32,173 bases of DNA. Origin: Collinsella tanakaei. Its GTDB lineage: Bacteria > Actinomycetota > Coriobacteriia > Coriobacteriales > Coriobacteriaceae. The stretch lies in assembly GCF_030373545.1 (NCBI RefSeq), contig NZ_JAUDCO010000014.1, positions 1 to 32,173 of the forward strand, given 5' to 3'. How positions within the stretch are numbered: the stretch's first letter is position 1; every line of letters begins with the position of its first letter. A program made the position numbers and the translations under genes. The notes beneath the pieces are model-generated. The model searched no databases and was not told the DNA's origin. It saw nothing but the letters and a program-made list of their open reading frames with translations. Below are positions 1,797-17,115 of the stretch, in pieces.

Positions 1797-2630
1797 CTAC
1801 GCCGTAAACGGCCACTCCCCCGCCGCCAGCGCCTCGATGGCCGCGGCCACCGCATCGTCCTCACAGCGGCCGATGTGCCAGCGCGCCGCCTCCGTCGCGT
1901 CCGGCGAGGCGTTGCCCACCGCGACGGGATGCCCCGCGACCTCGAACATCGCCAAGTCGTTGCCCGCGTCTCCGAACACCACGACCTCGTCGGTCGACAC
2001 GCCCAGGTGCTTGCAGAGCACGCGCAGGGCGCTGCCCTTGTTCCAGCCCGCGGGCATGATGTTGGTAAAGCCCGGCATGGGAACGTCGAAATCAAGGCCG
2101 TCGACCTGCTCGTTGAGCATATCGACAAACGCCTCGGTGCCGGCGCGGTCCTCGTCCACAAAGATATTCGCCTTGAGCACCGGCGTGTCGGGCAGACCGT
2201 CCGCCGCAAGGGCGGCCTGGGCATAGGGCACCGAGATGTTCGCCAGCACCTCGCGGTCGCCAGCGACAAGGTAGGGCGTGGCCCCGTCGAACACGAGCAT
2301 GCCCGCGCCCGGCGCCTCGCTCACGACGTCATAGGCCTCGCGCAGGCAATCGACAGGCAGCCGCTGCTCGCAGATCTTCTCGCCGGCGCAGTAGACCTCA
2401 AGGCCGTTGGTGGCGATCGCCGTGGCGCAGCACGCCTCGTCGCCGCGGAAGAACGGCGCGATCTGCACGCGCCCGCGCCCGCTCGCGGGGCCCACGATCA
2501 TCCCCGCATCGAGCGCCGCATGAAACGCCGCCACCGTGCGCGCGGACACCGAAGGGGCGCCCTTGGGCATCACGGTGCCGTCGATGTCGGTCATGATGAG
2601 CTTGATGCGGGACGCGGATGGGGCGGGCAT
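1797..2630 (-). CDS. Cof-type HAD-superfamily hydrolase (sugar-phosphatase-like)
   Basis: A 277-residue cytosolic phosphatase of the HAD superfamily, Cof/IIB branch. Motif I is TDIDGTV (nucleophile D15, acid/base D17), and the motif III lysine is in WNKGS near residue 198. Motif IV is GDAGND at 220-225, with D221 and D225 as Mg ligands. A cap domain of about 100 residues sits between motif I and the NKG lysine, typical of class IIB enzymes that act on sugar phosphates, FMN or pyridoxal phosphate. The ATG at 2630 follows AAAGGAAGCTGCACC. A TACAAT -10 candidate lies at 2681-2686 on this strand. It converges with the 1211 gene and is probably monocistronic. The exact substrate cannot be read from sequence. 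Confidence 0.92.
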   Translation of the reverse strand: MPAPSASRIKLIMTDIDGTVMPKGAPSVSARTVAAFHAALDAGMIVGPASGRGRVQIAPFFRGDEACCATAIATNGLEVYCAGEKICEQRLPVDCLREAYDVVSEAPGAGMLVFDGATPYLVAGDREVLANISVPYAQAALAADGLPDTPVLKANIFVDEDRAGTEAFVDMLNEQVDGLDFDVPMPGFTNIMPAGWNKGSALRVLCKHLGVSTDEVVVFGDAGNDLAMFEVAGHPVAVGNASPDATEAARWHIGRCEDDAVAAAIEALAAGEWPFTA

Positions 2631-2680
2631 GGTGCAGCTTCCTTTCGGATGGCCTGGGCGGGACGATACGGATGAAACTC

Positions 2681-2686
2681 ATTGTA
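2681..2686 (-). promoter_or_regulatory. Candidate -10 box of the HAD gene
   Basis: Minus-strand GGCTACAAT occurs about 51 nt upstream of the ATG at 2630. Very similar (G)GCTACAAT/GCGCTACAAT strings sit upstream of the genes at 4174 and 18171, which supports a shared housekeeping -10 in this genome. Confidence 0.4.
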
Positions 2687-2750
2687 GCCCTCCGGGCGCA
2701 GCGTGCACCGGCATCCGCTCAACGGAGGAGCGGGGCAGCAGACCGCCATG

Positions 2751-2796
2751 AAAAAACGTCCCGCAGGCGCGCGAAGGTGCGCACCTGCGGGACGTT
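2751..2796 (-). terminator. Rho-independent terminator of the 2871-3869 gene
   Basis: Positions 2755-2772 and 2779-2796 form an 18-bp GC-rich stem with one mismatch and a 6-nt loop. On the minus strand the stem is followed by a run of six T (the AAAAAA at 2751-2756). It lies 74 nt after the stop of the membrane-protein gene ending at 2871. This is the clearest terminator in the window. Confidence 0.88.
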
Positions 2797-2870
2797 GTAT
2801 GCCGTGAACGGACGACCAGGACCTTGAGGGCTGAGACCGCGGGACAGCCGCGAACCCGGACACGCGTGCC

Positions 2871-3869
2871 TTACGCGGCGGGAGCGGTCTCCTGCTCGAC
2901 GCGGTCGAGGGCCTTCTTGAAGCCCTTGGACATGCCGGCAAGCTTGCCGTACGCGTCGACCTGCGGCGTGCTCGCGCGGCCGGCCTCGATGTAGCGGCGC
3001 ATGACGGACACGAGGATGAACGGCTTCACGAAGGCGCCGTGCAGGCCGCCCCACAGCACGAGAGCAACGATGCCGCACAGCACGAGCAGCGAGGTGCCTG
3101 CGGGAACGGCGGTGCCGTCCTCAAACGTAGCGGTCGCGTCGATGTCGGCAAGGATCGCCGTGAGCGGCTCGATGGAGCCGAAGATCAGGTACGCCGCGCC
3201 GAAGAACGCGCCGCCGATGATGGCGAGCGACACGAGCGTGATCGCGATCACCTTGGCGGAGTTCTTCATGAGGACCTTCCAGTTCTGGAAGTAGATGACG
3301 GCGCCGTCGCAGGTGCTCTTGAACGCCGACTGGTTCTCGTGGAGGAACACCCAGCCCAGGCTGCAGTAGTTGAGGTACTCGAGCACCACGCCGACGATCG
3401 CCGAGATGATGCCGGCCACGATGGAGGCAGCGCCGCCCTCGTTGTCGCCGTCGACGGAACGGGCGATCGCGTTCATGCCGGAGGAGATCTCGTTGGTGAT
3501 GGCACGCGTGATGGACAGCAAGCCGTAGTAGATGCTCGCCGTGGCGAAGCGGCGCTTGACGGCGCGCTTGCCCTCGCCGTAGACGTCCTCGGGCAGGGTG
3601 CCGCGGGCGACGCCTTGGGTGATCATGGCGATCTGGCCGGCCGTAAGCAGGTAGCCTCCGAAATGCGCGATGAGGTAGAAGATGATGAGGCCGACGATGA
3701 AGGCGATACCGGTTGCGGCAAGCTGGATCGTCTCGTCGATGCCGGCGATGCCGGTCGCGAAGAACGCGATCAGGGGAAGTGCGACCAGGATGGCGACGCA
3801 CAGGATGGTACGCAGGAGCCGCACGACGGAGAACCGCAGGGTACGGCGGTAGATCTCGAAGTTGCCCAC
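2871..3869 (-). CDS. Multi-pass membrane protein, unknown function
   Basis: A 332-residue integral membrane protein of no family I can name. Several hydrophobic segments are visible: a pair within about residues 20-75, further helices around 115-165 (with a serine/isoleucine-rich VAGIISAIVGVV stretch), a pair near 200-235 and a last one near 270-300. A C-terminal soluble tail of about 40 residues follows. The layout resembles DUF-type proteins that carry N- and C-terminal amphipathic segments. The GTG start at 3869 is preferred because AAAGGA sits 7 nt upstream and the protein then begins GNFEIYRRTLRF; the ATG at 3908 lacks a site. An extended -10 (TGC-TAAACT) lies at 3933-3938 on this strand. 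It ends in a strong terminator, so it is its own transcription unit. Confidence 0.8.
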   Translation of the reverse strand: MGNFEIYRRTLRFSVVRLLRTILCVAILVALPLIAFFATGIAGIDETIQLAATGIAFIVGLIIFYLIAHFGGYLLTAGQIAMITQGVARGTLPEDVYGEGKRAVKRRFATASIYYGLLSITRAITNEISSGMNAIARSVDGDNEGGAASIVAGIISAIVGVVLEYLNYCSLGWVFLHENQSAFKSTCDGAVIYFQNWKVLMKNSAKVIAITLVSLAIIGGAFFGAAYLIFGSIEPLTAILADIDATATFEDGTAVPAGTSLLVLCGIVALVLWGGLHGAFVKPFILVSVMRRYIEAGRASTPQVDAYGKLAGMSKGFKKALDRVEQETAPAA

Positions 3870-3932
3870 AGGGGATTCCTTTCGTCTGAGCACAGCGTAG
3901 GCTGGCATGGGGGTCGGAAAAATCGGCCGAGT

Positions 3933-3941
3933 AGTTTAGCA
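3933..3941 (-). promoter_or_regulatory. Candidate extended -10 of the membrane-protein gene
   Basis: Minus-strand TGCTAAACT is an extended -10 (TGN plus TAAACT), about 64 nt upstream of the GTG start at 3869. Confidence 0.35.
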
Positions 3942-4132
3942 CGGGTGCGCGATGGGCGTGCGGTGGGAGTGCGCTATGCTCAACGAGTGGGTGAGAGTTG
4001 GAGACGACGAAGCGATTAAGGCAGCAGAGAGCCCAGACACACTCGCCCGCGGCCGGATTGAGTGGCTCGGCGTGGCCGGCCCGCACGCACACGGCACGAA
4101 GCTCGCATCGATACCAGACGGTCCACACGCGC

Positions 4133-4138
4133 TACAAT
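4133..4138 (+). promoter_or_regulatory. Candidate -10 box of the DUF3592-like gene
   Basis: TACAAT in the context GCGCTACAATGC lies 35 nt before the GTG at 4174. The context matches the -10 candidates at 2681 and 18027. Confidence 0.4.
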
Positions 4139-4173
4139 GCCAGCATCGAACGATCCGTCTTGAGGAGCGCACC

Positions 4174-4572
4174 GTGAGCGACGGGGCCATGATTCTGTTG
4201 ATCTTCGGGCTGATTGCACTGCTCGGCGGCGGCACGACCGCCATCGTGCTGCTGGTCGCCAAGCGCGTCCGCGCGCACAAGGAACGCACCTACACCGGCC
4301 AGACGGTGGGCACCATCGTCCGCGTGCGCCCGGGCAGCGTGGACCGCCCGACCACCGTGTACGTCCGCTACGAGGTCGGCGGCGTGGCATACGAGCGCCG
4401 TGAGACCGTCAAGCTGACCAGCGAGGCGATTAAGCTCGGCCCCATTCCCATCGGCCAGCGCAAGCACGGCAAGATCCCCTCGCACGTGGGTTGCACCGTG
4501 CCCGTGGCGTATCTGCCCGAGGATCCATCGAAGGCGATCTTGGTGGGGAACAGCGGGTTGATGAATGTGTAG
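4174..4572 (+). CDS. DUF3592-like membrane-anchored protein
   Basis: A 132-residue protein with one N-terminal transmembrane helix (about residues 6-26, followed by basic KRVRAHKER) and a small beta-rich domain. That domain carries the pattern expected of DUF3592: a TGQTVGTIVRVRPGS strand, a YVRYEVGGVAYE strand, and the closing VGCTVPVAYLPEDPSKA, where the family usually has a 'VyYdPenP' motif. DUF3592 proteins are widespread membrane proteins of unknown role. The frame is open from 3952, but the GTG at 4174 follows GAGGAGCGCACC and starts just before the helix. The upstream stretch has no site and contains the likely promoter. Family call is by motif only. Confidence 0.72.
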   Translation: MSDGAMILLIFGLIALLGGGTTAIVLLVAKRVRAHKERTYTGQTVGTIVRVRPGSVDRPTTVYVRYEVGGVAYERRETVKLTSEAIKLGPIPIGQRKHGKIPSHVGCTVPVAYLPEDPSKAILVGNSGLMNV

Positions 4573-4607
4573 GGTGAGCGTGCGAGCTGGTGCTTGCAGC
4601 GGCTTTG

Positions 4608-4625
4608 GCTGACATATTGGTCAGC
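4608..4625. promoter_or_regulatory. 6+6 bp inverted repeat, possible operator
   Basis: GCTGAC-ATATTG-GTCAGC is a perfect short dyad in the 172-nt gap before the HD-hydrolase gene. A GATAAT -10 candidate follows at 4700-4705. No T-tract is present, so an operator is likelier than a terminator; support is thin. Confidence 0.25.
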
Positions 4626-4744
4626 TGTCCTGCCACGTCCCGCAGAGCGAACGGCGGCGATAGTGCTGCCTCGGCCGTCCCGCCTGCCGCCGCCTGCGCG
4701 ATAATGGGATTCCGGACACGCTGCGAGCGACAGGGAGGCGTCCC

Positions 4745-5701
4745 ATGCTGTACACGCCCGCGACCAAGCGCGCGCTGCGCTATTGCCTAGCTTGTCACGA
4801 GGGGCAGCTCGACAAGACGGGCCTGCCCTATGCCTTGCATCCCATCCATCTGGCGGAGCAGATGCGCGGCGAGGACGAAACGTGCGTCGCGCTGTTGCAC
4901 GACGTCATGGAGGACTGTGGCAAAACGCCCGACGACCTGCGGGGCATCGGGATGTGCGAACGCGTCGTGGAAGCGCTGACCCTGCTTACGCACAACCCGG
5001 CACTCCCCTATCTGGACTACGTACGACAGCTGCGGGACAACCCCGTGGCGCGCGCCGTGAAGATCGCCGACCTACGACATAACTCCCAACTTGCGCGTCT
5101 TGACGAGGTGCGCCCACGCGACGTGGAGCGCCTGCGCAAGTATATGGAGGCGCGCGTGGTGCTTGGCGATATGGCGTACGAGCTCGTAACGCCGGCGGGA
5201 TCCGTGCGAGTACTGGTGAACGGCGAGCCGTATCCGCTTGTTCTGGTTGACGAGACGTGCGAGGGCTTTACGTACTGCCCTTCGTATGGCGAAGATGCCG
5301 ACACGGACGGCGGGCGCATCCTCGGCGCGCCGGATGGAACGTATCGGCTGGAGATCGAGACGCTACCGCTTGCCGTGGGTGATGTCATCGAAATCGCGCA
5401 TGAATTCGGCACGAATATCGTCAATTACGGAAGTGACGAACGGGTGGACTACGCGGTTTATGCGGCGTGCGGGCATGTCGTCGGCGTGGGATGCTATGTG
5501 GACGAGGAGGACGGCAACCCGGCGGAGAGCCGCGCCTTTGCCGAGGATGGCCGCGAGCGGTACGTCATCGTGCGGGATCCGGTGTCCCATCGGTTTTGCG
5601 AGCGCGAGCATGTCATCCCCGTCAGGGTGGCATGGAAACGGGGCGCGGACGCCGTGGCAGCGGAGGTTGTCGGATGGGTCGCCGGCTGGGGTAGATGGTA
5701 G
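4745..5701 (+). CDS. HD-domain (SpoT/MESH1-like) hydrolase with unknown C-terminal domain
   Basis: A 318-residue protein. Residues 1-140 form an HD-type metal-dependent phosphohydrolase of the Rel/SpoT hydrolase kind: YALHPIHLA (H32), LLHDVMED (H52-D53 with E56-D57) and KIADLRHN (D109, N113). These are the Mn-binding and catalytic elements of (p)ppGpp hydrolases and MESH1-type enzymes. No synthetase domain, TGS or ACT domain follows. Instead there are about 175 residues of mainly beta-strand, acidic sequence that I cannot place. The ATG at 4745 follows GACAGGGAGGCG at good spacing. A role in hydrolysing (p)ppGpp or another nucleotide is inferred from the N-terminal half; the C-terminal half may be a sensor or a second substrate-binding module. 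It appears to be a single-gene unit. Confidence 0.85.
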   Translation: MLYTPATKRALRYCLACHEGQLDKTGLPYALHPIHLAEQMRGEDETCVALLHDVMEDCGKTPDDLRGIGMCERVVEALTLLTHNPALPYLDYVRQLRDNPVARAVKIADLRHNSQLARLDEVRPRDVERLRKYMEARVVLGDMAYELVTPAGSVRVLVNGEPYPLVLVDETCEGFTYCPSYGEDADTDGGRILGAPDGTYRLEIETLPLAVGDVIEIAHEFGTNIVNYGSDERVDYAVYAACGHVVGVGCYVDEEDGNPAESRAFAEDGRERYVIVRDPVSHRFCEREHVIPVRVAWKRGADAVAAEVVGWVAGWGRW

Positions 5702-5916
5702 TGGCGTCGGGCGACGCAGGCGTCTAAAGCGAGGTGGACGCCCGCTCGTCTTTGATGCCGTGCACATGCTTATCAGGCTGCTTCATAAAGCGACACCCTC
5801 TCTCTAACTTGTTCCCCCATCCACGTGCATAGGACTCCAGTGTGTCGCTCGTCCTTGCTAAAACCAATGCTACAGTTGTGCCAGCCCATACCCGAGCCGC
5901 ATAGAAAGCAAGAACC

Positions 5917-6870
5917 ATGGTGACTCAGCCCAAACTTGGAAAGATCGAGAAAGTCAACGTGCGCGACGTCTGGCCGCACGAGGCGCTGAACTTCACGAAG
6001 TGGCTTGCGGAGGAAGAGAACCTCTCTTTGCTGGGCGATGCCTGCTCCATCGAACTTGAGCTCATCGAACAGGAAAGCTCCGTCGGGTCGTTTGCGGTGG
6101 ACATCTTTGCCCAAGAGGTCGGCGCGGAACGCAAGGTGGTCATTGAGAATCAGCTTGAGGACACCAACCACGACCACTTGGGGAAAATCATCACCTATGC
6201 GTCAGGTAAAGATGCCGGCGTGGTCATTTGGGTTGTTGCGCACGCGCGCGACGAGCATCGCCGGGCAATCGAGTGGCTGAATGAGCACACGGACAGCGAC
6301 TGCGCATTCTTCTTGGTGGAGATTGAGGTGTGGCGCATCGGTGACTCCGCCATGGCGCCCCGTTTTAACGTTGTTGAGTCGCCCAACGAGTGGGCACGAG
6401 CGGAGAAGTCTAAGGCAGGCCTTTCGGAGACGGACCGCATCTCGCTCGAATTTTGGCAAATGTGCATTGACCGTACTGCAAAGAATGAAGTGTTTTCGAA
6501 GACCTTTAAGCCGCAGAATCCGCGAGCGAAACACTACTTTGAGCTGTACGCGGACTCGAAGAGATACCATTTGGTCCTCTTAATCAACACAAGGCTTAAG
6601 AGGATCGGCGTAGAATGCTGCGTCCACGATGCCGATTTTGGCGAATTCGTTCTTTCCCGCCAAAATGAGCTGGAGCAGGCCCTAAACATTGCCGGCACGC
6701 CCTACAGGGCAAAGAACAAAGGCATCCGTTTTTATATCGACAGACACGACGTCAAAAACGCTCGTGAAAAATGGCCCGGATACATTGACTGGCAGATTGA
6801 GAAGATTGCGGTGCTTCAAGCCGAAATGGTCCGGTTGGAAAAGGAGTTTGAAGCGGATTCAGGTGAATAA
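5917..6870 (+). CDS. DUF4268 protein with PD-(D/E)XK-like nuclease domain
   Basis: A 317-residue protein. The N-terminal ~170 residues look like the restriction-endonuclease-like domain common in DUF4268 proteins: SFAVDIFAQE (D62), then VVIENQLE (E77, Q79), then DHLGKIITYASG and VVIWVVA. That is the D-E-x-Q/K spacing of a PD-(D/E)XK core. The C-terminal ~140 residues (from SLEFWQMCIDR to IDWQIEKIAVLQAEMV) form the DUF4268 part and end in a coiled-coil-like acidic/basic tail. Such proteins occur alone or beside defence systems; biochemical function is not established to my knowledge. The ATG at 5917 is the only good start, although its Shine-Dalgarno (AAGCAAG) is weak. Codon use is noticeably less GC-biased than in the preceding genes, marking the start of the accessory island. 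Confidence 0.82.
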   Translation: MVTQPKLGKIEKVNVRDVWPHEALNFTKWLAEEENLSLLGDACSIELELIEQESSVGSFAVDIFAQEVGAERKVVIENQLEDTNHDHLGKIITYASGKDAGVVIWVVAHARDEHRRAIEWLNEHTDSDCAFFLVEIEVWRIGDSAMAPRFNVVESPNEWARAEKSKAGLSETDRISLEFWQMCIDRTAKNEVFSKTFKPQNPRAKHYFELYADSKRYHLVLLINTRLKRIGVECCVHDADFGEFVLSRQNELEQALNIAGTPYRAKNKGIRFYIDRHDVKNAREKWPGYIDWQIEKIAVLQAEMVRLEKEFEADSGE

Positions 6871-7085
6871 GGAACCGCGCAGTTAGGCAAAATACGCACC
6901 CGTTGAGAGGCTCATTTAGGGACACAAATACGTAATGCAGGCGCTCGAATCTGAAATCGCAGCGACACCGCTTCCTGCGACAAATGAAGTTATCGCTCTT
7001 GAATGACCGATACCCGCAGGCACTTCTAATTCAATCGAAAACCAGGAGAAGGAATAGGCACTTGGACCCGGAAAGGAGATAACAA

Positions 7086-7670
7086 ATGGCCAGACTTGCA
7101 TGCCCGTGCGGGAACATCCTGTGGAATGGATGCGACGAAAACAACCCGCAGTGCACCTTCTATCCATGGGAAGAGCTGCAAAATCATATGGATGATCTTG
7201 CGTTTTTTGAGCTCGATTCTTCTCCGGAAACCAGAAGCCTGGATATCTGGCAATGCTGGGAATGTGACCGTCTCATGGTCTTCGACGATCCGAATAGCAA
7301 TAGGGTAACGAGATGGTTCAAAAGAGTGTGTGCAGACGACTTCCCTATAGAAAAGAAAGATAATCCTCATGAAATCGGCGTTTTCTTCAATGATGCGTTC
7401 TTCGATACGGTCTGCAGGAAGCTTGATTTAGAAGAGGGCTCGGACAAATACAGCCTCATCGGAATGAAGTTCGATCCCGCGGAGAAGCTTCTGTCCCCTC
7501 GGGTCATGATGGAGAAGTTCTTTGGCGCGGTAAACGAGAAGGTTCGAAACTGGTGGCTGTCGGAGCACTACGCGGACTGGATAGTCCTCTACGATGCTTT
7601 TGATTTCGGCATGAATACGCCGCTGAAAGCATGGCGTCGATATAAACCAGACTGGAGCGTCGAAGGGTAG
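7086..7670 (+). CDS. Cysteine-rich (zinc-binding?) protein, unknown function
   Basis: A 194-residue soluble protein that I cannot assign to a family. The N-terminus carries CPCGN (C6, C8), C16 and C23, and a second pair CWEC (C57, C60) follows, so a structural zinc site is likely. The rest is acidic and aromatic-rich (for example NWWLSEHYADW, and FDFGMNTPLKAWRRYKPDW at the C-terminus), with no transmembrane segment. The start is secure: GGAAAGGAGATAACAA precedes the ATG, the strongest ribosome-binding site in the window. It lies 215 nt after the DUF4268 gene on the same strand, so a two-gene transcript is possible but not shown. Composition is AT-richer than the core genes. The small size, island location and strong expression signal would suit an immunity-like or accessory defence protein, but that is speculation. 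Confidence 0.7.
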   Translation: MARLACPCGNILWNGCDENNPQCTFYPWEELQNHMDDLAFFELDSSPETRSLDIWQCWECDRLMVFDDPNSNRVTRWFKRVCADDFPIEKKDNPHEIGVFFNDAFFDTVCRKLDLEEGSDKYSLIGMKFDPAEKLLSPRVMMEKFFGAVNEKVRNWWLSEHYADWIVLYDAFDFGMNTPLKAWRRYKPDWSVEG

Positions 7671-8035: not shown

Positions 8036-9091
8036 CTAGACAACGAAATAAAGGTCGCCCCTGGCACGCGTCATGGCGACGTAAAACTTTGCCTTGGTTT
8101 GACCTTTGAGCTTAGATGGCTTGTTCTCTATCCATTTTTTCATCTCGCCAGTAGGGAATATCACTACGTCTTCGAGAGTTAGACCTTTCGATTCCCCCAT
8201 GGTCATTACGGGAAAACCCAAAGGCACGGTTGTTCGGCTGTCCCAGACCAAGGCGACAGTCCGAGCCTTTCTCGACAGAGCCCATCCTTTAAGTTCCGAT
8301 ATGCTGACGGTGGTGACTCGCCCACGAGGGTCTCGAGCGCGGTCCCCACTTGGAGCGACGGGAGGGTAGTCGTCATACAGGCGATTGGCGAGAGAGATTA
8401 TGGTGTCGGAGCATCTGTGGGTAACAGAGAGCGTCGTGCTATCGACCGTATACTGCGTATTCCTCACAAAGAAGTCGAAAATGTCAGGGTTGGCCTTGTT
8501 CTTAGCCTTAGCACCAGTACGATACGTCTGTTGTCTCGGATCGCCAACGATTACCATTTCCTTCGACTGCTTCATCAGAGCATGGAGCAAATCATAGTCG
8601 TATCCCGCGAAGTCCTGAGCCTCGTCTACAAGAATGGCTCCAAAGATGTTGCACACCCTCTGGACAACTTCACCACCCCACTGCTCGTTGCACAAAAAAG
8701 CAAGGTCGGCAAGCCTTGTCCTATAGGCGACGCCAGGATGTGGACAGTAGTATCGCTCGTCTCCTCGCTGGACCCCCCGAGCATTGCGAGGATCCTGGTC
8801 GTTGAACAGCATGCGATCAATGCGATGGTTAAACCCTCTGGCTGGAAAAGGCCTTACCCCATGAATCAGCAGGAAGGAAAACCAGGTCATAACTGTAATG
8901 TTGACGGGCATGTGCCCAACTCGCCTGACGATTGCCTCGCGGAACTCCGCCGCATTCGCATCCGTATATGTCAGGTATAGCACCCTCCGATCGATGCAGC
9001 GCTCGAGGGCGATTTCGCGCAACATGCTCGTCTTGCCGGTTCCTGCTCCGGCAACATAGATCCTTTTCGAGGGATTAGAGCTTGCCGTCAA
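8036..9091 (-). CDS. gajB: UvrD/Rep-like helicase, Gabija GajB-like
   Basis: A superfamily 1A helicase-like protein, the expected partner of the OLD-type nuclease gajA just upstream. Visible motifs, numbered from the TTG at 9091: Walker A VAGAGTGKT near residues 13-21, motif II LVDEAQD near 154-160, motif III GDPRQQTYRTG near 183-193, an SVTHRCS motif IV-like block, GESKGLT, and motif VI VAMTRAR at about 338-344. The protein stops seven residues later. At about 351 residues it is shorter than the ~490 residues I recall for characterised GajB, mainly through a small 2B region and almost no C-terminal tail. The frame is open from an ATG at 9127, inside gajA, but that ATG has no ribosome-binding site. 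The TTG at 9091, preceded by AAGGGGCTGGGGTGGA, is preferred. Either way the gene overlaps the gajA stop, implying translational coupling. In Gabija, GajB is thought to sense DNA ends and nucleotide state and activate GajA. Confidence 0.8.
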   Translation of the reverse strand: MTASSNPSKRIYVAGAGTGKTSMLREIALERCIDRRVLYLTYTDANAAEFREAIVRRVGHMPVNITVMTWFSFLLIHGVRPFPARGFNHRIDRMLFNDQDPRNARGVQRGDERYYCPHPGVAYRTRLADLAFLCNEQWGGEVVQRVCNIFGAILVDEAQDFAGYDYDLLHALMKQSKEMVIVGDPRQQTYRTGAKAKNKANPDIFDFFVRNTQYTVDSTTLSVTHRCSDTIISLANRLYDDYPPVAPSGDRARDPRGRVTTVSISELKGWALSRKARTVALVWDSRTTVPLGFPVMTMGESKGLTLEDVVIFPTGEMKKWIENKPSKLKGQTKAKFYVAMTRARGDLYFVV

Positions 9092-10775
9092 TCCACCCCA
9101 GCCCCTTCGTAATATAATCGGGAACATTCACGGATTCATATGCTTCGAACAGTGCGAGCGCAACCTCCGTCTTGTTGCCCTCCATATACTTGAGAAGGCT
9201 GGCTTCGTCTGGATAGCCCTTGCCCAGAATGGAGTTAATCGCATCTAGACCATTTGCTCGCAATATCTCGGCTTCTAGGGTATTCCAGTTGAGTTTCTTC
9301 TCGTGGTCAACATCGTTGGGGTCATTGGGTGGATAGACCGCATCGTCAAAGCTGACGTTGACATTAGGACAGCCATAATATGCCTGGTACTTTTTCCTAA
9401 GCCTCTCGGGGTTCCCGTCGTTGTCTGTTAGAACGAGGATCCGTCTCTGTATCGCGGAGGCGAGCTCGAGAAAGCGCAAGAAGCCACTGCCGACGGCAAT
9501 AACGTCGATTCCATCCTCTATGGGGAGCCTGTTCTCGTGGGTTTTCCGATATGCGAGTTGGACAACAAGCTCGTCGGAAGGTCCCTCCACGAGAATGGCC
9601 GACTTGGCGAGAACGAGGCGAAGGGTATCATATCCGGGCAGTCGCTTGAAGAAGTTTAGCGTTGGCCCATCAAGCCCGCTTAGCGGTGCGCACATCGAGC
9701 CCTCTTCCGAAGACCCGACAATCTGAATGTTCTCGAGACCAAGGATGTTGGCCACATAGCTCGAATGAGTAGTCATCACAATCTTGCGACCGTCGGCACC
9801 CCTGGAAATGAGGTGAACAAGCTGGTTGAGATTGGTATGCGAGAGGTGATTCTCGGGCTCCTCGAAAAGCAGCATAGTAGTCTTTTCCGGACGCCTCTTG
9901 TCAAGCGCAATTCCCGCCTGAATCATGCTCTGGGAGCCCGCACCGATGTGACTATAGGGAACGCTCTCAAGTCGAACTACGAGGTTCTTCTTCCATGATT
10001 CCGAAGTTCCGAAATCCGCCACAAGGTCGATGCCACCCATGTCATCGAAGTTGAGCGTGGGGAGGAAGGCGCTTGCAGCGCGAAGGGATTCCGCCGCGTT
10101 CCAAGTATCGAACGAGGCACGGGCGCTCTGGGCGAGAGCCATCCTGTGCTCTTCATCCAATCCATCCAGAAGGGTACGCGCTGCGCGCTCATCAGCCCAA
10201 CCACCACGCCATTCCCCGGTAGGATTGATCATTACGGAGCGGACGGGAATCGATCTTGGAGTGATCAAGGCCCCCGCGAATGTCAGCCAACGCACATCGT
10301 AATACTCGATGGGGAGGCTCTTGAGACATCCGTCAGGAAGGCCCTCGAGCTCAACTCGAAACTTTTCATCAAACTCAACGGAGAAAGTGAACCCACACGC
10401 TTTCCTGCTCGTTGAGTTGTTGCCACCTGACAGCTCATTGGTCTCACTAAGATTTTCCCCAGTTAGAAATACCTCGACTGTTATCTTGGGCAGATCTGAT
10501 AAATCTCTGCTACCCGCTCTTTCAATGAAGCTGTTGACCGCATTGATATTGAACAGCGCTTGTGAGAGAGCCCTCCTGATTGGCTCGCCGCGATATAGGC
10601 CAGTAAGTGCGAGGTGAACGGCTTCGAGTATGGTGCTCTTACCAGCACCGTTATCGCCGACCAGAATGTTGAGGTCACGCTCAAAATCAACGAGCAGCGG
10701 AGCCCCAATGCGCTTAAACCCCGCGATGACAACGCGGTCGACATCAAAGCCGTTTCGCCCGCTTCCCATATCCAC
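9075..10775 (-). CDS. gajA: OLD-family ATPase/TOPRIM nuclease, Gabija GajA-like
   Basis: A 566-residue protein with the GajA architecture and close to its usual length. The N-terminal ABC-type ATPase half shows Walker A VGDNGAGKST at 39-48, signature-like GAGSQSMIQ at 278-286, Walker B MLLFEEPE at 301-308 and the TTHSSY switch near 335-340. The C-terminal TOPRIM nuclease half shows LVEGPSDE at 395-402 (metal-binding E397, D401) and VLTDNDGN at 448-455. In Gabija, GajA is a nucleotide-inhibited, sequence-specific DNA nickase that is released when phage replication depletes NTPs. The first codon is GTG at 10775; an ATG two codons later at 10769 is an alternative. It begins 59 nt after the type III res gene on the same strand, with no terminator between, so the pair probably shares the restriction-modification transcript. 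Confidence 0.88.
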   Translation of the reverse strand: MDMGSGRNGFDVDRVVIAGFKRIGAPLLVDFERDLNILVGDNGAGKSTILEAVHLALTGLYRGEPIRRALSQALFNINAVNSFIERAGSRDLSDLPKITVEVFLTGENLSETNELSGGNNSTSRKACGFTFSVEFDEKFRVELEGLPDGCLKSLPIEYYDVRWLTFAGALITPRSIPVRSVMINPTGEWRGGWADERAARTLLDGLDEEHRMALAQSARASFDTWNAAESLRAASAFLPTLNFDDMGGIDLVADFGTSESWKKNLVVRLESVPYSHIGAGSQSMIQAGIALDKRRPEKTTMLLFEEPENHLSHTNLNQLVHLISRGADGRKIVMTTHSSYVANILGLENIQIVGSSEEGSMCAPLSGLDGPTLNFFKRLPGYDTLRLVLAKSAILVEGPSDELVVQLAYRKTHENRLPIEDGIDVIAVGSGFLRFLELASAIQRRILVLTDNDGNPERLRKKYQAYYGCPNVNVSFDDAVYPPNDPNDVDHEKKLNWNTLEAEILRANGLDAINSILGKGYPDEASLLKYMEGNKTEVALALFEAYESVNVPDYITKGLGWIDGKL

Positions 10776-10834
10776 CTACCCAATCTATCGCAAATATACG
10801 TTGGGATGATCCTGCAGTTTATGCGATCCCGCAC

Positions 10835-13441
10835 CTACCCCAAAATCTCGCTGCCGAACTCCGCCAGCGTGAACGCGTTGTCCGCGTCCGGCGCTTCGTG
10901 CTCGAACACCATGAAATACCGGAATCCGTTACCTGCCCTATCAGCCCATCGTGTGCCAAGCCTCAGCTTGCGCCTGGCGTCCTCGCCCAGGTGCTCGCCC
11001 TTAGTCTCGATTGCCATGAGCACGTCATCGTCGCGCAGCGCGAGAAAGTCCGGATAGTGGTTGATGAACCCGTTGATGCTGAACTCCTCGGGCTTTCGCT
11101 CCACCACGCGGTGCCACCACGTGATGCGTCTATTGTTCGCGAGCAGATCCACCATCTTGCGTTCCAGGCCGTCAACACGTCCGTCCTCGGCCTCGTAGAG
11201 ACCTTTGTCGTAGCTGGTCATGGGACTTGCCTGGACGAAGGATTCCGGGAACCGGTACTCCGGCTCGAGCCGCACGTCGCCGCGCGAGAGAAGCTTGCCG
11301 AAGCGATCCTCGCAGAAGTCGTCAGCGAGCCCGCGCACCGCGCTAGTAACGGCGCGTGCGACGCCACCCACGCTATGGAGGCACGCGTTCACGACAGGCG
11401 ACTCCATGTCGTCTACCACACGAGAGATATAACCCGTGAGTTGGGTGCTCCCGAAGGTGTTCTTGAACTGCGACGACATAGCCTGGAGGACGAGCGCCTT
11501 CAAGCTCTCGCGCTTGCTCTCGTCAGTCATGTTGGCGAAGAGCATCGCCATGTTCTTCCTGACGTCGTTCTCGAGCCAGCGGATGCGGTACTCGTCGGAG
11601 TCGGAGGCAAGATCAACCTCACGTGCCTCAGAGAAGGTGTCGGGATTGATCTTAACGCCGTCGATACCGTACTTGGACAGCTTGAAGTCAGTGAGCAGGT
11701 CCTCACGATCGAGCGGCTTCCAGATCTCAGCATCGGTGAACAGGCCACCGTCCACGCGAACCATAAACTGCGGAATGCACAGCTCCCTCGCCGAGTCGGC
11801 AACCGCCTCGCGCATACGGTACACGTTCATTCCCCCTCCTAGACCACCGAGCAGAGAAGCCGGATCACCCGAGTCGGTTTCGTCCTCGAAGCGCTCCTCG
11901 ATGTTGCTGGAGGTGTTGATGATGTCGTCCACGGTTGTGGGCTCGGAGCCGGAATTATCGGGCACGCTTAGGTCGAGCCCGTCGAGATCGAGCTCGTTGC
12001 CCTCGCCGTCCTCGCTGTCGCTCTCCGGAACATCCGGGAAATCAATCTGATCTTGCTTTGCGGGTACTGCGGGCGCCATCCCGGCGGTCTCCACATCCTC
12101 CTGCGAGAAGCCCACCCCGTTGAGGCCGCGAACAACCTGCTCGAGTGTCGCATCGAAGTCCGCCGAAGCCGTGAGCACGTAGGCGATGTTGAGGCTACGG
12201 GCGTCGGCTCGCGCCGCGTAAGGCTGCCTCAACACGCGACCCACGATTTGCTCGACGCTCACCTGCGAGCTCTTGTTGGCCACGGTGGCAAGCGCGTAGG
12301 CAAAGGGACAATCCCAACCCTCGGCGAGAGCCTCCACAGTGATGATGAAACGTATCGGGCACTCGCGAGCCATGAGGTCAGCACCGCCGATCTCGTCCAC
12401 GTCGCCCGTTCGCACAGCTATCTGCTCGGCAGGAATGCCGCCCTCGATAAGCTTCTCTTTGAGCTTCTGGTAGGTCTCAGCGCCCTCAGTTCCGCGTCGC
12501 TCTGCCTGGAAAAGAACGATGGGGCGGATGTATCGTCCGGTCCTCTTTTCGTCCTGCTCGGCGATGACCTCGAGCCTGTGCTGGAGCGTGACGGCGTCGG
12601 CGATGGTCGTCCGCTTATCAGGACGACGATACACCACCACGGGAAGCTTCACCATCTCCTCGCGCTTGAGCTGACGCGCCGTCGCCTGCGCAATCACATT
12701 TGCGCCTTTGCCAGGAGTCGCCGTGAGCTCCAGCACGAAGCGCGGGTTGAGGTTGCGCAGCATGTCGAGCGAGAGCTTACTTTTCGCGTGGTGGCTCTCG
12801 TCCACAATGACAATCGGGTTCGTACCGGCAAGGGCAGAGATGAGGGCCGTATCGTCTGCGCCTTCCACGTCAACTGCCGTACCGGTGTCGCGCTGGTAAG
12901 TAGTGAGCCCAGCAAGCGATGAGTTCTCCGCGTAGGCGCGGCGACCATCTTTGTTCTTGAATGAGTCGTAAGAAAGCACGAACAGTGTGAGCTGATCACC
13001 CACGGTCGCGGCGCTGAACGCACGACCCCTAAGTCCGTCCTCCTTGTCGAGCACCTCCACGCGTCCCGCGAAGTCTCGATCAAGGCGCGTGCGCAGGAAG
13101 TGCTCGGGATTCCTAAAGTTGCGAAGCGTCTGCACAAGAATTTCTCGCCTCGGCACGAGCCACACAACGACTTCGTCGTGTGAGGGCAACGCGTCCGAGA
13201 GCACATCGATAGCGCATGTGCCAATGAATGTCTTCCCGCCGCCCGTGGGCACCTTGACGCAAACCTTCGGCGCGCCGCCGAGGTCGTCGCGGTAGCGCTC
13301 GACGCCGCCCTGACCGGGCGTGAGCCCGACGGCGTTCATGAACACGCCGTAGGCCGTCGCCGCGTCCCTGGTCATCGCGTACGTCCTCGCGAAGCGGCCG
13401 ACCTCCTTGAGGACTTCTCTCTGGTACTGCTTCAGCTCCAT
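10835..13441 (-). CDS. res: Type III restriction enzyme, Res subunit (helicase-nuclease)
   Basis: An 868-residue ATP-dependent restriction subunit. It starts MELKQYQREVL, a classic type III opening. It then has SF2 helicase motif I VPTGGGKT at 64-71, motif II VDESHH at 213-218, a SLT/AT motif (ELTATPGKGA) and motif VI VEQIVGRVLRQP. An acidic linker of about 60 residues follows. The C-terminal PD-(D/E)XK nuclease is intact: YPDFLAL (P797, D798), then AIETKG (E812, K814). It translocates on DNA and cuts when two head-to-head unmodified sites meet, in complex with Mod. The ATG at 13441 lies 2 nt after the mod stop, with GCGAGGAT inside the mod end as its site, so the two are translationally linked. 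No frameshift is seen. Confidence 0.94.
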   Translation of the reverse strand: MELKQYQREVLKEVGRFARTYAMTRDAATAYGVFMNAVGLTPGQGGVERYRDDLGGAPKVCVKVPTGGGKTFIGTCAIDVLSDALPSHDEVVVWLVPRREILVQTLRNFRNPEHFLRTRLDRDFAGRVEVLDKEDGLRGRAFSAATVGDQLTLFVLSYDSFKNKDGRRAYAENSSLAGLTTYQRDTGTAVDVEGADDTALISALAGTNPIVIVDESHHAKSKLSLDMLRNLNPRFVLELTATPGKGANVIAQATARQLKREEMVKLPVVVYRRPDKRTTIADAVTLQHRLEVIAEQDEKRTGRYIRPIVLFQAERRGTEGAETYQKLKEKLIEGGIPAEQIAVRTGDVDEIGGADLMARECPIRFIITVEALAEGWDCPFAYALATVANKSSQVSVEQIVGRVLRQPYAARADARSLNIAYVLTASADFDATLEQVVRGLNGVGFSQEDVETAGMAPAVPAKQDQIDFPDVPESDSEDGEGNELDLDGLDLSVPDNSGSEPTTVDDIINTSSNIEERFEDETDSGDPASLLGGLGGGMNVYRMREAVADSARELCIPQFMVRVDGGLFTDAEIWKPLDREDLLTDFKLSKYGIDGVKINPDTFSEAREVDLASDSDEYRIRWLENDVRKNMAMLFANMTDESKRESLKALVLQAMSSQFKNTFGSTQLTGYISRVVDDMESPVVNACLHSVGGVARAVTSAVRGLADDFCEDRFGKLLSRGDVRLEPEYRFPESFVQASPMTSYDKGLYEAEDGRVDGLERKMVDLLANNRRITWWHRVVERKPEEFSINGFINHYPDFLALRDDDVLMAIETKGEHLGEDARRKLRLGTRWADRAGNGFRYFMVFEHEAPDADNAFTLAEFGSEILG

Positions 13442-13443
13442 GG

Positions 13444-15195
13444 CTAGATCCTCGCTATCTGGTCGGGCACGCGCTTGAAGACGACCCCCATCTCGTCAAG
13501 GCGCTCGGGCGCAATGGCGCAGCGGTCCGCGCAGATCACGGTCGGCGAGCCCTTACGCGGGAGGCCGCGCAGCAGGTCGTAGGTGAGCGCGGTCTCCTCG
13601 CCGGGCTCCCAGGCGAGGTAGTAAACCGCCTGCGCGTGCTCGCCGAGGAGGTAGGGATGCTCTTCGGTGAGATCCTCGTAGGGCGCGCGGGTCTCGGTCG
13701 CCCAGACGTAGCGGGCGAGGTCCGCGCGCGTGACGTCCGGGCTCAGAGTCCCGTCGCTGCGGAAGAGCGCGGGTCCGAGCTCGTAGTAGGAGAAGCCGGA
13801 GTCGGTGCCCCCGACGGCCTTGCTTCCCTCGCCGTAGCCGCGTATGACGCGACGCACGCGCTCGGCAGTAGTTGTATCTGCGTATTCGCTCAGCTCGATC
13901 AGGATGAATCTGCGCTGTCCGCCGTCTTCGGCGTTCTTTCGAAGAACCGCTTCCGCCGTTGTACCGGAGCCGGCAAAGGAGTCTAATACCAGCGAATCAG
14001 TCTCAGTCGCAATATGAAGAATGCGCTCGATTAGTCGAGGTGGCTTGGGGGTGTCAAACACGACTTTACCATCGAAAATTTTCTTAAGTAGTCGCGATGC
14101 CTCACCAGTGTGGCCAGTCTCTTCATGTGACCAGAAGTTCGTAACTGGACGACCCGCTACGGCATCAACGTAAGCCTTTCGATAGAGAACGCCCTTCCCC
14201 TTACTGGAAAAGAAGAACTCGGGAAGAACGCTGTTCTCATAGATGCTCAGAGCCCGTTCTTTTGCCTCGTCGAGAGGGACGTCAAGAATTATTGCTGAAA
14301 CATCATTCTTTACCTCATCCGGAGATACATTGCACACTTCGGCGCGTTCCCCTTTATCGGCAATCTCCTCAAGCTTGTAAGGACACCATTCGTTCATGGC
14401 AGCAAGCATCTGAGGTTGGCCAAGGCTCCAACATCTCCCGCGTGGCGGATAGCACATCTTTCCCGTTACCGGATTTTGTATTGCATACACCATACCCTGA
14501 TGCGTAGTGGCGCCCGGCGCGCTTGCAACGATGCTACGCCAGTCTCCTCGCGGATCATTGTCGGAATTCGAGAAGCGAGCGTTCATTTCCTCAGTCCGAG
14601 GAAGCTTATTAGGCTGCCACTGCGGCCTGGCGCCGTAGACAAGCATATGCTCAACTTCAGCGGCAATACCCTTCACGTCATTGCGCATCGAGTATGTTCT
14701 CTGCCAGGAGATGTCCGCAACGAAGCACGAGGGACTGAAGATCTCATCGCAGATGAGCTTCAAGTTGAACAGTTCATTGTCGTCGATGCTGATGAAGATG
14801 GCGCCCGTCGGGGAAAGCAGCTTCCTTAGCAGCTGGAGCCTCGGGTACATCATGCACAGCCACTTGTCGTGACGAGAGAAGTCCTCGCCCTCCTTGCCCA
14901 CGACCTGGCCGAGCCACTTCCTGATGCGGGGGTCGTTGACGTTGTCGTTGTACACCCAGCCCTCGTTGCCGGTGTTGTACGGCGGATCGATGTAGACGCA
15001 GTCGACCTTTCCCTCGTACTCGGGCAGCAGCGCCTTCAGCGCCTCGAGGTTATCGCCGTGGATGACCATGTTCCCGCAGTCCGAGCCGTGGCTGTCGAGC
15101 ACGCCCTTCTCGGGCACGCGCTCGAGCACGCGATACGGGACGTCGCGGTGGTGGTTGACCACCTTCTCCTTGCCCATCCAGTTGAGAGTCGGCAT
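13444..15195 (-). CDS. mod: Type III adenine-specific DNA methyltransferase, Mod subunit
   Basis: A 583-residue N6-adenine methyltransferase and specificity subunit of the type III system. Catalytic motif IV, IDPPYNTG (D70-Y73), precedes the AdoMet-binding motif I, DSFAGSGTT (405-413), which is the beta-class order used by type III Mod proteins. The region between carries the variable target-recognition domain, roughly residues 150-360. That middle stretch is clearly AT-richer than the two ends, the mosaic pattern expected when specificity domains are swapped. The frame is open to 15246, but the ATG at 15195 gives MPTLNWMGKEKVVNHH, the conserved N-terminus of this family, so it is preferred. 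A candidate extended -10 sits at 15249-15257. The modified sequence cannot be predicted. Confidence 0.94.
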   Translation of the reverse strand: MPTLNWMGKEKVVNHHRDVPYRVLERVPEKGVLDSHGSDCGNMVIHGDNLEALKALLPEYEGKVDCVYIDPPYNTGNEGWVYNDNVNDPRIRKWLGQVVGKEGEDFSRHDKWLCMMYPRLQLLRKLLSPTGAIFISIDDNELFNLKLICDEIFSPSCFVADISWQRTYSMRNDVKGIAAEVEHMLVYGARPQWQPNKLPRTEEMNARFSNSDNDPRGDWRSIVASAPGATTHQGMVYAIQNPVTGKMCYPPRGRCWSLGQPQMLAAMNEWCPYKLEEIADKGERAEVCNVSPDEVKNDVSAIILDVPLDEAKERALSIYENSVLPEFFFSSKGKGVLYRKAYVDAVAGRPVTNFWSHEETGHTGEASRLLKKIFDGKVVFDTPKPPRLIERILHIATETDSLVLDSFAGSGTTAEAVLRKNAEDGGQRRFILIELSEYADTTTAERVRRVIRGYGEGSKAVGGTDSGFSYYELGPALFRSDGTLSPDVTRADLARYVWATETRAPYEDLTEEHPYLLGEHAQAVYYLAWEPGEETALTYDLLRGLPRKGSPTVICADRCAIAPERLDEMGVVFKRVPDQIARI

Positions 15196-15248
15196 TGACG
15201 CACATCCAATCCGGTACAAGCCGTGACGGTTAACAACACAATGCAATT

Positions 15249-15257
15249 ATTATCCCA
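15249..15257 (-). promoter_or_regulatory. Candidate extended -10 promoter of mod-res-gajA-gajB
   Basis: Minus-strand TGGGATAAT is an extended -10 (TGN plus GATAAT), about 54 nt upstream of the mod ATG. It lies in the 60-nt gap after the ATPase/TOPRIM gene. No terminator is visible in that gap, so read-through from upstream is also possible. Confidence 0.45.
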
Positions 15258-15306
15258 CAGGGACCGGACAAGTTGAGGGCTGCAGAACGTGCGCCAATGA
15301 ATTGCT

Positions 15307-17115
15307 TTACCGCTCTACTAGGGTTTTTAAATCTTTGGGGAAAGCCACCTCTTGCAGAACCTTTTCTTCTGTTTTAGAAATGTAATCTATCGCTTTAAAA
15401 TACCAGTCTTCAGAATGCTCCTTGTTTTTGGTTTTGGACATCTCTGGAAAAATACTCTCAAGTATTCCGCTCCTTATAATTAAGATGCCATAATTCATTA
15501 ATTGTGTAATAATATCATCAATTTCCTCATACAAACCTTCGCCGTATGCATTTACTGATTCCAGACTTACAAACTTGTACGCATTTGAAATGCGCGTTTT
15601 GTTGTTCTGCCTCGCTTTACCGTCACACTCACTATTCTGGTTTTCATTCTGGTTTTCTGAATGATGGGGCTTCATCTCGCTCGATATAGCATCGTACAGC
15701 GATTGCGCGGCACTCACGGCATGCTCAGCCAATACATTTGGAACATTAGCCGCTCCCACAACCCGTTGAAGCTCATCCACCGTCTTAAGCAAATCAAAAT
15801 CGGCGACCATGCGGACTTTAATACCCGCCTTCTTATAGAAATCGATTTTGCTTTTAAAATTCTGCTTTCCGTTCACTGGAACAAACAGGATATCTTGCAT
15901 GGGAAACATCTTGGCAGCTAATTGCCCAAACAATTCCGCATCTCGAGGGCCTTCCGTCAAGACTACGACTTCCGAAAAAAGCGCATCAACATATGCTGGC
16001 GTAAAACCCGTTGTAGATATAAGTTTTTCGAGGTCAACGGTTTCTATTACGTTAGCCCGTGTTGTATCACCTTCTCTCGCTAATCGAATTATCTGCACTT
16101 CTGCAGACTGGCCGCCTCGCTTCATTTCCGAAAGCACGCCGCGAATGAAATACGAACTATGGGTCGCAATGAATAATTGGCTCTCTTTTGCACCCGAACT
16201 CGAGACCATTGCCGCAATCTTTTTTCCCATCTCAAAAGCAAATGGGGGATGGAGAAACGATTCAGGCTCATCAAGCAGATACACGGGCTTTTTATTTCCA
16301 AGTATAGAAACCAGAACGGAAACAAAGCTTCTAAATCCATCCCCCTCTTCACTCAAGGGCGAGGCGTTAGATAGCTGCGTGTTATCAGGGGCATGAGTCC
16401 CAGAAACACTCTCTCTGTATTCTGAGAAACTAGCGCTCACAAGAGGCCTTACAACTTGTCGATTACTAGAAACATCAAGTATGACGTCTTTTCCAAATAA
16501 ACTCATAACAGTATCTGAAATGCTGTATAGATATGGGTCAGTATCTAGCGCCGCAGATAACGTGTTGTAATCACAATTGTCCAGCCCTCTAGCAGGCTCG
16601 CCAATTGATAGAACTAGCCTCTCCTCTGTCCCTGAATAGCTAACGAAAAGAGGGCCAACAAATTGTTCGAATTGCCCATCGCGCGCATTGATGCATTCTT
16701 CCAGAACTTCCTGCAGCTTCAGGTCATCTGACACGGGAATTGTTACTTGGCCACTATAGGAATAATATCCATCTGGGTTTATTTGGATACCACAACTACA
16801 GTAGCCCCTTGAACGCCAGCCATCAGAAGTTCGAAGGGCGATTTTGTCGAGGGGCCCATAAGCCTTCACGAATTCCCCAACGTCCTTTGGCAAATTGAGT
16901 TGAATACTTGTGAGTACAGCCAGCGGATAATCTGGCAAGCCATAATTTCGTGGGTGTCCAAGAATCTCGGACCGGATCTCCTTCAGCAGCCTGCTTTTAC
17001 CGGAATTGTTTGGCCCGATAATAACGTTGATTCTACGGGGCTCAATTTGAACATCCCCATTAAAATTAAGCTTATTTATCTTAAAGTGATACCCGTTGTC
17101 CGCAATAGAATTCAT
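15307..17115 (-). CDS. OLD-family AAA ATPase with TOPRIM-like nuclease domain
   Basis: A 602-residue protein of the overcoming-lysogeny-defect (OLD) kind. The ABC-type ATPase half has Walker A IIGPNNSGKS at 32-41, Walker B YLLDEPESFLHPP (about residues 275-290) and the IATHSSYFI switch. The TOPRIM-like half has VLTEGPRDAELF (E388, D392) and MVADFDLL (D439, D441), followed by a GILIIRSGILE strand like that near the end of OLD proteins. Class-1 OLD nucleases act alone; no helicase is adjacent, so this is not a second Gabija pair. A fused PARIS-type (AriA-AriB) protein is the main alternative. Codon use is strikingly AT-rich compared with both neighbours, implying independent acquisition. The ATG at 17115 opens the conserved fold, but its Shine-Dalgarno is weak. 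It is co-directional with mod, 111 nt away from it. Confidence 0.82.
   Translation of the reverse strand: MNSIADNGYHFKINKLNFNGDVQIEPRRINVIIGPNNSGKSRLLKEIRSEILGHPRNYGLPDYPLAVLTSIQLNLPKDVGEFVKAYGPLDKIALRTSDGWRSRGYCSCGIQINPDGYYSYSGQVTIPVSDDLKLQEVLEECINARDGQFEQFVGPLFVSYSGTEERLVLSIGEPARGLDNCDYNTLSAALDTDPYLYSISDTVMSLFGKDVILDVSSNRQVVRPLVSASFSEYRESVSGTHAPDNTQLSNASPLSEEGDGFRSFVSVLVSILGNKKPVYLLDEPESFLHPPFAFEMGKKIAAMVSSSGAKESQLFIATHSSYFIRGVLSEMKRGGQSAEVQIIRLAREGDTTRANVIETVDLEKLISTTGFTPAYVDALFSEVVVLTEGPRDAELFGQLAAKMFPMQDILFVPVNGKQNFKSKIDFYKKAGIKVRMVADFDLLKTVDELQRVVGAANVPNVLAEHAVSAAQSLYDAISSEMKPHHSENQNENQNSECDGKARQNNKTRISNAYKFVSLESVNAYGEGLYEEIDDIITQLMNYGILIIRSGILESIFPEMSKTKNKEHSEDWYFKAIDYISKTEEKVLQEVAFPKDLKTLVER

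Follow-up and report, generated by a model that had tools for sequence, protein, structure and literature searches.

The window analysed here is a 32,173-nucleotide (nt) stretch of Collinsella tanakaei DNA, the entire contig C6 (32 kb) of a 2.2-Mb genome, and it carries a type III restriction-modification (R-M) gene pair followed by a pair of Gabija genes. All four genes lie on the minus strand and are assigned by both Pfam and PADLOC: mod (13444..15195) codes for a type III DNA methyltransferase of 583 amino acids (aa) (PDLC03644, E=2e-179; PF01555; solved Mod structures 6k0w and 4zcf_A), res (10835..13441) for an 868-aa type III restriction subunit (PDLC03653/PDLC03650, E=2e-69; PF04851), gajA (9075..10775) for a short-form Gabija OLD-type nuclease of 566 aa (PDLC00102, E=1e-149) and gajB (8036..9127) for a short UvrD-like SF1 helicase of 363 aa (PDLC00148, E=2e-83). 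The mod gene starts at an ATG; a TTG at 15246 would lengthen the frame, yet relatives align from the ATG. Only 2 nt separate mod from res, the res-gajA junction (10776..10834) measures 59 nt to the GTG start of gajA or 65 nt to an alternative ATG 6 nt further on, and gajA and gajB overlap by 53 nt when the first ATG of gajB is taken. This co-directional arrangement, with its spacing, is the one described in the original prediction made from this DNA, and the open reading frames (ORFs) bear it out.

Both systems appear intact at the motif level, as had also been claimed, with family matches and motifs in all four proteins (motifs were read by eye and carry their usual names). Mod contains DPPY and FAGSGTT and has the make-up of a type III methylase, being a beta-type N6/N4 methylase (DPPY and FxGxG) with a central recognition domain. 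Res (GGGKT, DESH and a C-terminal PDF...ETK) joins an SF2 helicase (PF04851) to a C-terminal PD-(D/E)XK nuclease, whose PD...ETK motif is invariant in 6/6 rows. GajA is an OLD-family ATPase with a TOPRIM nuclease, as expected of Gabija; it has a Walker A motif, EEPE and the TOPRIM residues E397/D451/D453/K535 (invariant in 16/16 rows), and the best fold matches of its structure model (pLDDT 82) are the class-2 OLD protein 6p74 and the Gabija GajA 8sm3. The adjoining gajB product is a UvrD/SF1A helicase, again as expected of Gabija (GAGTGKT, DEAQD, AMTRAR), modelled as a small UvrD-type helicase fold, with the Gabija complex chain 8tk1_F at rank 30 among its matches.

Upstream of mod lies a promoter-like box of the extended -10 type, CCCTGTGGGATAAT (15249..15262, minus strand). 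A promoter driving all four genes had been proposed at 15249-15257; this candidate has no -35 match and is absent from the list of our sigma-70 scan, but its DNA is conserved in five of the eight loci aligned (the window, L095, L096, L120 and L122, all members of the set described below). No minus-strand terminator-like or promoter-like match was found in the res-gajA gap by sequence scan, in keeping with the operon-like block originally described, and the fold of the gap is unremarkable (z=-1.2). Minus-strand terminator-like matches are found within mod (14218-14191), res (13159-13144) and gajB (8718-8701), and the scan totals are near chance (14 terminator-like matches vs 11.6 +/- 3.1 in shuffled sequence, 7 promoter-like matches vs 6.4 +/- 2.4). 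The genes placed behind res, which we call passengers, are likely to be co-transcribed with mod and res from the mod promoter, judging by the spacing, the conservation of the promoter box and a gap free of terminator-like matches.

To see what lies behind res elsewhere, we compared 65 genomes of the family (own genome included). A mod-res pair of this subfamily (Res at least 66% identical) is present in the C. tanakaei genome and in G001, G020, G049, G059 and G061, a 3' remnant of res is present in G026, and two further complete mod-res loci lie on viral contigs (L120 and L122), giving a set of eight full loci and one remnant locus. In a search of the phylum this Res was found in 4/396 genomes (E<=1e-40), counting the own genome and the G026 remnant. 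In 9/9 loci of the set a co-directional, defence-like gene starts 4-65 nt past the res stop codon (genes of unannotated loci being longest-ORF calls). The nearest in-frame start lies 4-16 nt past the stop in the seven complete relatives, three of which also have a start inside the end of res, and 13 nt past it in the remnant locus; ribosome-binding-like sites directly follow the res stop in most relatives.

The passengers belong to four families: Gabija (one locus), Mrr-like (three), Abi_C (three) and AbiH (two). An all-against-all comparison gave no blastp match between these families at E<=1e-3, so that non-homologous defence genes occupy one position behind a conserved R-M pair at all nine loci. 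The Mrr-like passengers (L095, L098, L102) are 514-540 aa long and 35-62% alike, and a plasmid search with that of L095 gave no match. L096, L099 and L122 carry an Abi_C passenger followed by a second ORF (Abi_C itself was scored in L096 and L122, and the first passenger ORF of L099 is 98% like that of L096); AbiH is found in L097 and L120. In L102 (6834-8895) res has decayed to a 143-codon 3' remnant and the Mrr-like passenger ORF is intact 13 nt behind it; here the passenger has outlived the R-M system.

The window is thus the only member of the set with Gabija, gajAB being absent from all eight other loci (tblastn for L095-L099 and L102, blastn and ORF lists for L120 and L122). None of the five family relatives with this mod-res has gajAB nearby, and their genomes hold no strong match to the short GajA anywhere (best E 8.6e-9 or weaker). 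In G018, a further member of the family, the two kinds of system sit on separate contigs, a short gajAB on C7 and a distant type III pair on C13. The original prediction named absence of this gene order from related genomes as a refuting outcome, and within the family that outcome was obtained; a conserved composite defence unit is not supported there, and a fixed four-gene system was rejected. The predicted gene order does recur outside it, on a Streptococcus salivarius plasmid with a Res of another subfamily, and the gajAB of Bifidobacterium apri sits behind a different R-M system (both discussed below).

The most direct view of an exchange comes from the two viral contigs. L120 and L122 share about 87% DNA identity over 6.6-12.6 kb comprising mod-res and upstream sequence (blastn), do not align at all across the passenger (AbiH in one, the Abi_C pair in the other) and return to about 87% identity for 6.4 kb past it. 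The 5' break lies no more than a few bases from the res stop codon. Alignment of the window with the two contigs is confined to 15276 to 10836/10837, from the promoter region to the res stop (blastn), and the homology of the window to the other mod-res loci ends at that stop codon. This alignment consists of two pieces, leaving the middle of mod unmatched. The unmatched part corresponds to the target-recognition part of Mod (14000..14745 on the minus strand, limits approximate), where identity between the window and the other loci is 34-73% (34-60% in the core); the rest of Mod is 64-98% identical, transition zones aside. GC content is 0.52 in the variable middle of Mod, against 0.61 and 0.675, and steps down to 0.53 in gajAB from 0.675 in the C-terminal part of Mod and 0.61 in res. 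Taken together, the homology limits and the variation in the middle of Mod indicate two variable places in the cassette, the target-recognition part and the passenger.

Other res genes served as controls. Thirteen further type III loci of the family, all distant, were inspected (L137-L149, neighbour distances read by eye; L140 lies near a contig end, L139 and L143 have irregular frames), and in six of them a co-directional ORF starts no more than 60 nt downstream of res (L138, L141, L142, L144, L145, L146), that of L138 looking like a housekeeping gene. Distant Res homologues from outside the family (L106, L107, L121, L124-L132) have such an ORF in 3/12 cases, namely a prokaryotic Argonaute (pAgo, L130), a 155-aa protein (L131) and a host-like helicase (L107), and in 5/12 cases when the distance is extended to 150 nt, which adds Fic (L125) and a McrBC-like pair (L127); in L132, an ORF of 40 aa that overlaps the end of res was left out of the passenger count. 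Two of these loci merit description in their own right: on a Fibrella plasmid (L130, 6001-11113) the Argonaute gene (PDLC02379) follows the type III mod-res after 43 nt, and on a Hymenobacter plasmid (L127, 4398-13192) mod-res is followed, all in one direction, by an AAA_5 and McrC-like pair and a TIR gene. Finally, three of ten loci with a PDLC03651 Res (L159-L163, L169-L173) have an ORF within 60 nt, coding for GajAB (L162), an AAA protein (L159) and an ATP-binding protein (L170). From these counts, full occupancy of the slot is a trait of the subfamily in this family, and the slot is less used outside it.

We consider it probable that the window holds a promoter-mod-res cassette with an exchangeable 3' passenger slot, filled here by a short-form Gabija pair. 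The comparisons suggest that the position behind res is conserved and that the gene filling it can be swapped. In type III systems Mod methylates one strand of its site, and Res together with Mod cuts unmodified DNA, an activity that requires ATP and two sites in head-to-head orientation. Under such an arrangement the mod promoter would supply expression to whatever gene lands behind res, Mod would protect self DNA, Res would cut unmodified DNA and Gabija would attack invader DNA escaping Res, as a separate second layer needing no contact with Mod or Res. The two systems most likely act as such separate layers; a functional link, with Res making DNA ends on which Gabija acts, is speculative. 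For this type III subfamily a testable rule would then follow, namely that genes are swapped directly behind res, with the stop codon as a sharp boundary, and new defence genes can therefore be sought at that place. Pairs of the L120/L122 type are natural experiments in which the R-M part stays near-constant and the effector changes. In the open-licence literature, as far as the excerpts available to us go, we found no description of this swap site or of an R-M operon with Gabija as its 3' passenger.

Several observations weigh against this reading. The Mrr-like label comes from one marginal Pfam match (Mrr_cat in L098 only, 22.5 bits for a cut-off of 21), and the PADLOC matches of these passengers are weak. 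The excess of occupied slots over the distant loci of the family (8/8 vs 6/13, Fisher p=0.015) is a weak control, related loci not being independent. The promoter box was not seen in three of the eight loci (L097-L099). The gap of the window itself (59/65 nt, against 4-16 nt in the other complete loci) is the longest of the set and has no GGAGG-like site of the kind found in those loci. Defence genes, moreover, tend to cluster regardless. Mod-res and gajAB could be chance neighbours in a defence island, two intact systems transcribed independently. The long gap would fit, as would the further defence-like genes in the window (PDC-S11 at 5917-6870 and an OLD-like gene at 15307-17115) and, in the available part of PMC8547433, the finding that a single hotspot of Dolosigranulum pigrum contains Gabija and R-M systems of types I-III. 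We nevertheless find chance unlikely as an explanation; against it stand the occupancy of the same position in 9/9 loci, the breaks in homology at the res stop and the recurrence of the same order with other R-M types.

This recurrence was followed through the relatives of the window GajA, which matches 1706 plasmid records at E<=1e-20, mostly distant ones (56/60 rows under 30% identity in a spread sample). The rows nearest to the window, L032 and L033, are placed in Bifidobacteriaceae, and no type III pair was found beside gajAB in L032, L033 or L100, another locus of that family (tblastn with the window mod and res; ORF starts). Overall, an R-M gene lies directly upstream in 6/26 scored GajA loci (the window, L032, L036, L039, L116 and L162), the labels being assigned by eye on the basis of ORF starts, existing annotation and, for some of the upstream ORFs but not all, family searches. 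In B. apri (L032) gajA follows, at a 0-nt gap, an Eco57I-type methylase and a T5orf172 helicase, which form a split type IIG pair, each matching its own complementary part of a single type IIG model. In L036 gajA is preceded at 5 nt by a methylase-like gene of which the contig start leaves only the 3' end; this gene is called a methylase because 5/7 plasmid matches are annotated as N-6 DNA methylase, the other two being hypothetical proteins, and it has no Pfam match. L039 has a 5'-truncated type III Res upstream of gajA, the two ORFs overlapping, and L116 a type III Res 31 nt before gajA with only the last 151 aa of Mod remaining. In the latter locus (1955-7343) three serine recombinase genes occupy the place of most of mod beside res-gajA-gajB. 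L162, the S. salivarius plasmid pIKMIN-B501, carries a complete mod-res-gajA-gajB array of four annotated genes; it was found by a Res query, not a GajA query.

On the GajA tree (L034 and L115, which lack upstream sequence, were excluded from the count) the R-M label needs 5 changes, at least 4 of them forced by starred branches, and its clustering is not beyond that of shuffled labels (185/500 as low). This pattern is more in line with several independent landings than with inheritance of a single unit, gains and losses being indistinguishable. Within a small, non-random sample of 24 loci obtained by GajA queries, six have a co-directional ORF of at least 90 aa within 60 nt upstream, and four of these are R-M genes (L039 and L116 being sisters). 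No R-M gene lies immediately before Gabija in 9/9 plasmid loci opened through GajA queries, in line with an autonomous passenger (plasmid match H47, resembling H46, was left unopened). One locus, L114 (7177-12665), has a SIR2-HerA pair 110 nt before a short gajA-gajB, possibly another host operon for Gabija. In the phylum search the short GajA was found in 1/396 genomes at E<=1e-30, the own genome, and that phylum therefore offers no wider statistics. The search of viral contigs gave no relative of the S. salivarius GajA and, with the L116 GajA, the same contig again and nothing else; phage records yielded two Listeria records only.

The repeated occurrence of Gabija behind unrelated R-M genes offers a setting in which to test whether restriction cuts feed an end-acting nuclease. 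In a two-tier unit of this kind, Res cuts would give linear ends and Gabija would act where the host end-processing enzyme cannot load, blocking re-joining. If so, phages shielding cut ends from repair nucleases would still be stopped. The six R-M-linked GajA loci, with their differing R-M kinds and five changes on the tree, and the four R-M genes among six close upstream ORFs speak for it. So does a 2025 preprint (PMC12407980) which, in its available part, proposes that Gabija targets linear DNA free of RecBCD and keeps it from circularising, licensed by phage end-binding proteins. The C. tanakaei genome encodes an AddAB/AdnAB-like pair (PF12705 matches both ORFs, PF00580 one of them), so that the same logic could hold, and Res cuts might speculatively supply the ends. 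However, 20/26 scored GajA loci lack an R-M gene directly upstream, the label clusters no more than in the shuffles, AbiH, Abi_C and Mrr-like genes, none of which is known to require ends, fill the slot as well, and the preprint, as far as available to us, concerned canonical Gabija in Pseudomonas and injected ends rather than cut DNA. We regard this two-tier arrangement as rather improbable. A broader version seems similarly doubtful: R-M operons would be a general chassis, a nuclease subunit followed by an interchangeable effector that is kept since R-M makes or guards its signal. In the case of Gabija, that signal would consist of ends made by Res and not processed by the host AddAB/AdnAB-like enzyme; this would explain why short Gabija landed behind several unrelated R-M kinds on separate occasions.

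A guard arrangement, in which the passenger is a fallback triggered when a phage protein inhibits R-M and any toxic or nuclease effector can therefore fill the slot, finds some support in the mostly abortive-infection type of the passengers by family name (AbiH, Abi_C/AbiJ-like), all directly behind res, and in PrrC and PARIS as guardians of R-M (available part of PMC12707154), but is very improbable given that the passenger families share no blastp similarity, so that no common sensor is seen, that the L102 passenger was kept after the decay of res and is hence not obviously dependent on R-M, and that the canonical Gabija of PMC12407980 is described, in the part available, as non-abortive with its own trigger.

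Other genes of the window and genome touch on these systems. The OLD-family AAA-TOPRIM gene at 15307..17115 (minus strand; PDLC02358, E=3e-21; GC 0.44), which the original prediction left out, lies 111 nt upstream of mod on the same strand and has no obvious helicase partner. It was considered as a member of the unit and set aside as a separate neighbour, because the mod-res homology to L120 and L122 reaches only 15276, short of its stop at 15307. The PDC-S11 (DUF4268) gene, on the plus strand, recurs near type III R-M loci of the family: a relative in L102 (1982-2911) is 53% identical (tblastn), and another in L141 (10178-11107), two genes behind res, was recognised from its printed N-terminal sequence. 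A second, long-form Gabija pair (PDLC00085 and PDLC00107) is present on contig C24 of the same genome (L157, 6647-10188), where the ORF list gives no R-M gene alongside.

Compared with known systems, the R-M part of the cassette resembles type III systems of the EcoP15I type in the order of mod and res, 2 nt apart, in the alignment of its Mod with EcoP15I Mod and another solved Mod, and in a helicase stretch of Res that aligns with 4zcf. It differs in its short Res (868 aa, subfamily PDLC03650/03653), only weakly like that of EcoP15I (E=1.3e-5), and in carrying a passenger. The passenger resembles Gabija of B. cereus VD045 in having an OLD-type ATPase-TOPRIM nuclease followed by a UvrD-like helicase, and the fold and sequence profile of its GajA match solved GajA. 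In contrast, the 363-aa GajB lacks the larger UvrD insertions, and its phmmer matches in the PDB are UvrD, not GajB. The characterised GajB is longer than this one. Gabija as a type is an anti-phage system with a GajA4-GajB4 assembly. We found no characterised member of the short form in the literature, so far as its excerpts extend; for other Gabija systems, the available parts report synergy with CRISPR-Cas in S. thermophilus (PMC12322248) and only very modest activity of one streptococcal Gabija (PMC11514479).

The closest match to the whole array is that of pIKMIN-B501, which has the four genes in the same order, the gaps measuring 2 nt and 20 nt and gajA overlapping gajB, but its Res belongs to subfamily PDLC03651 (profile comparison with the window Res gave only a 52-column helicase stretch at 2.6% probability) and its GajA to another branch. 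PrrC in the type IC EcoprrI locus and other guardians, as presented in the available part of PMC12707154, are likewise second defence genes within an R-M locus; the passenger of the window differs from them in being a complete two-gene system that elsewhere stands alone, in a slot that takes four unrelated families. Exchange at a fixed site is also known from hotspot R1H of D. pigrum, where, in the portion of PMC8547433 at hand, R-M systems of types I-III replace one another at a single chromosomal site, together with Gabija, Hachiman and Kiwa. There, whole systems share the site; here, the point of exchange is the res stop codon within an operon-like array.

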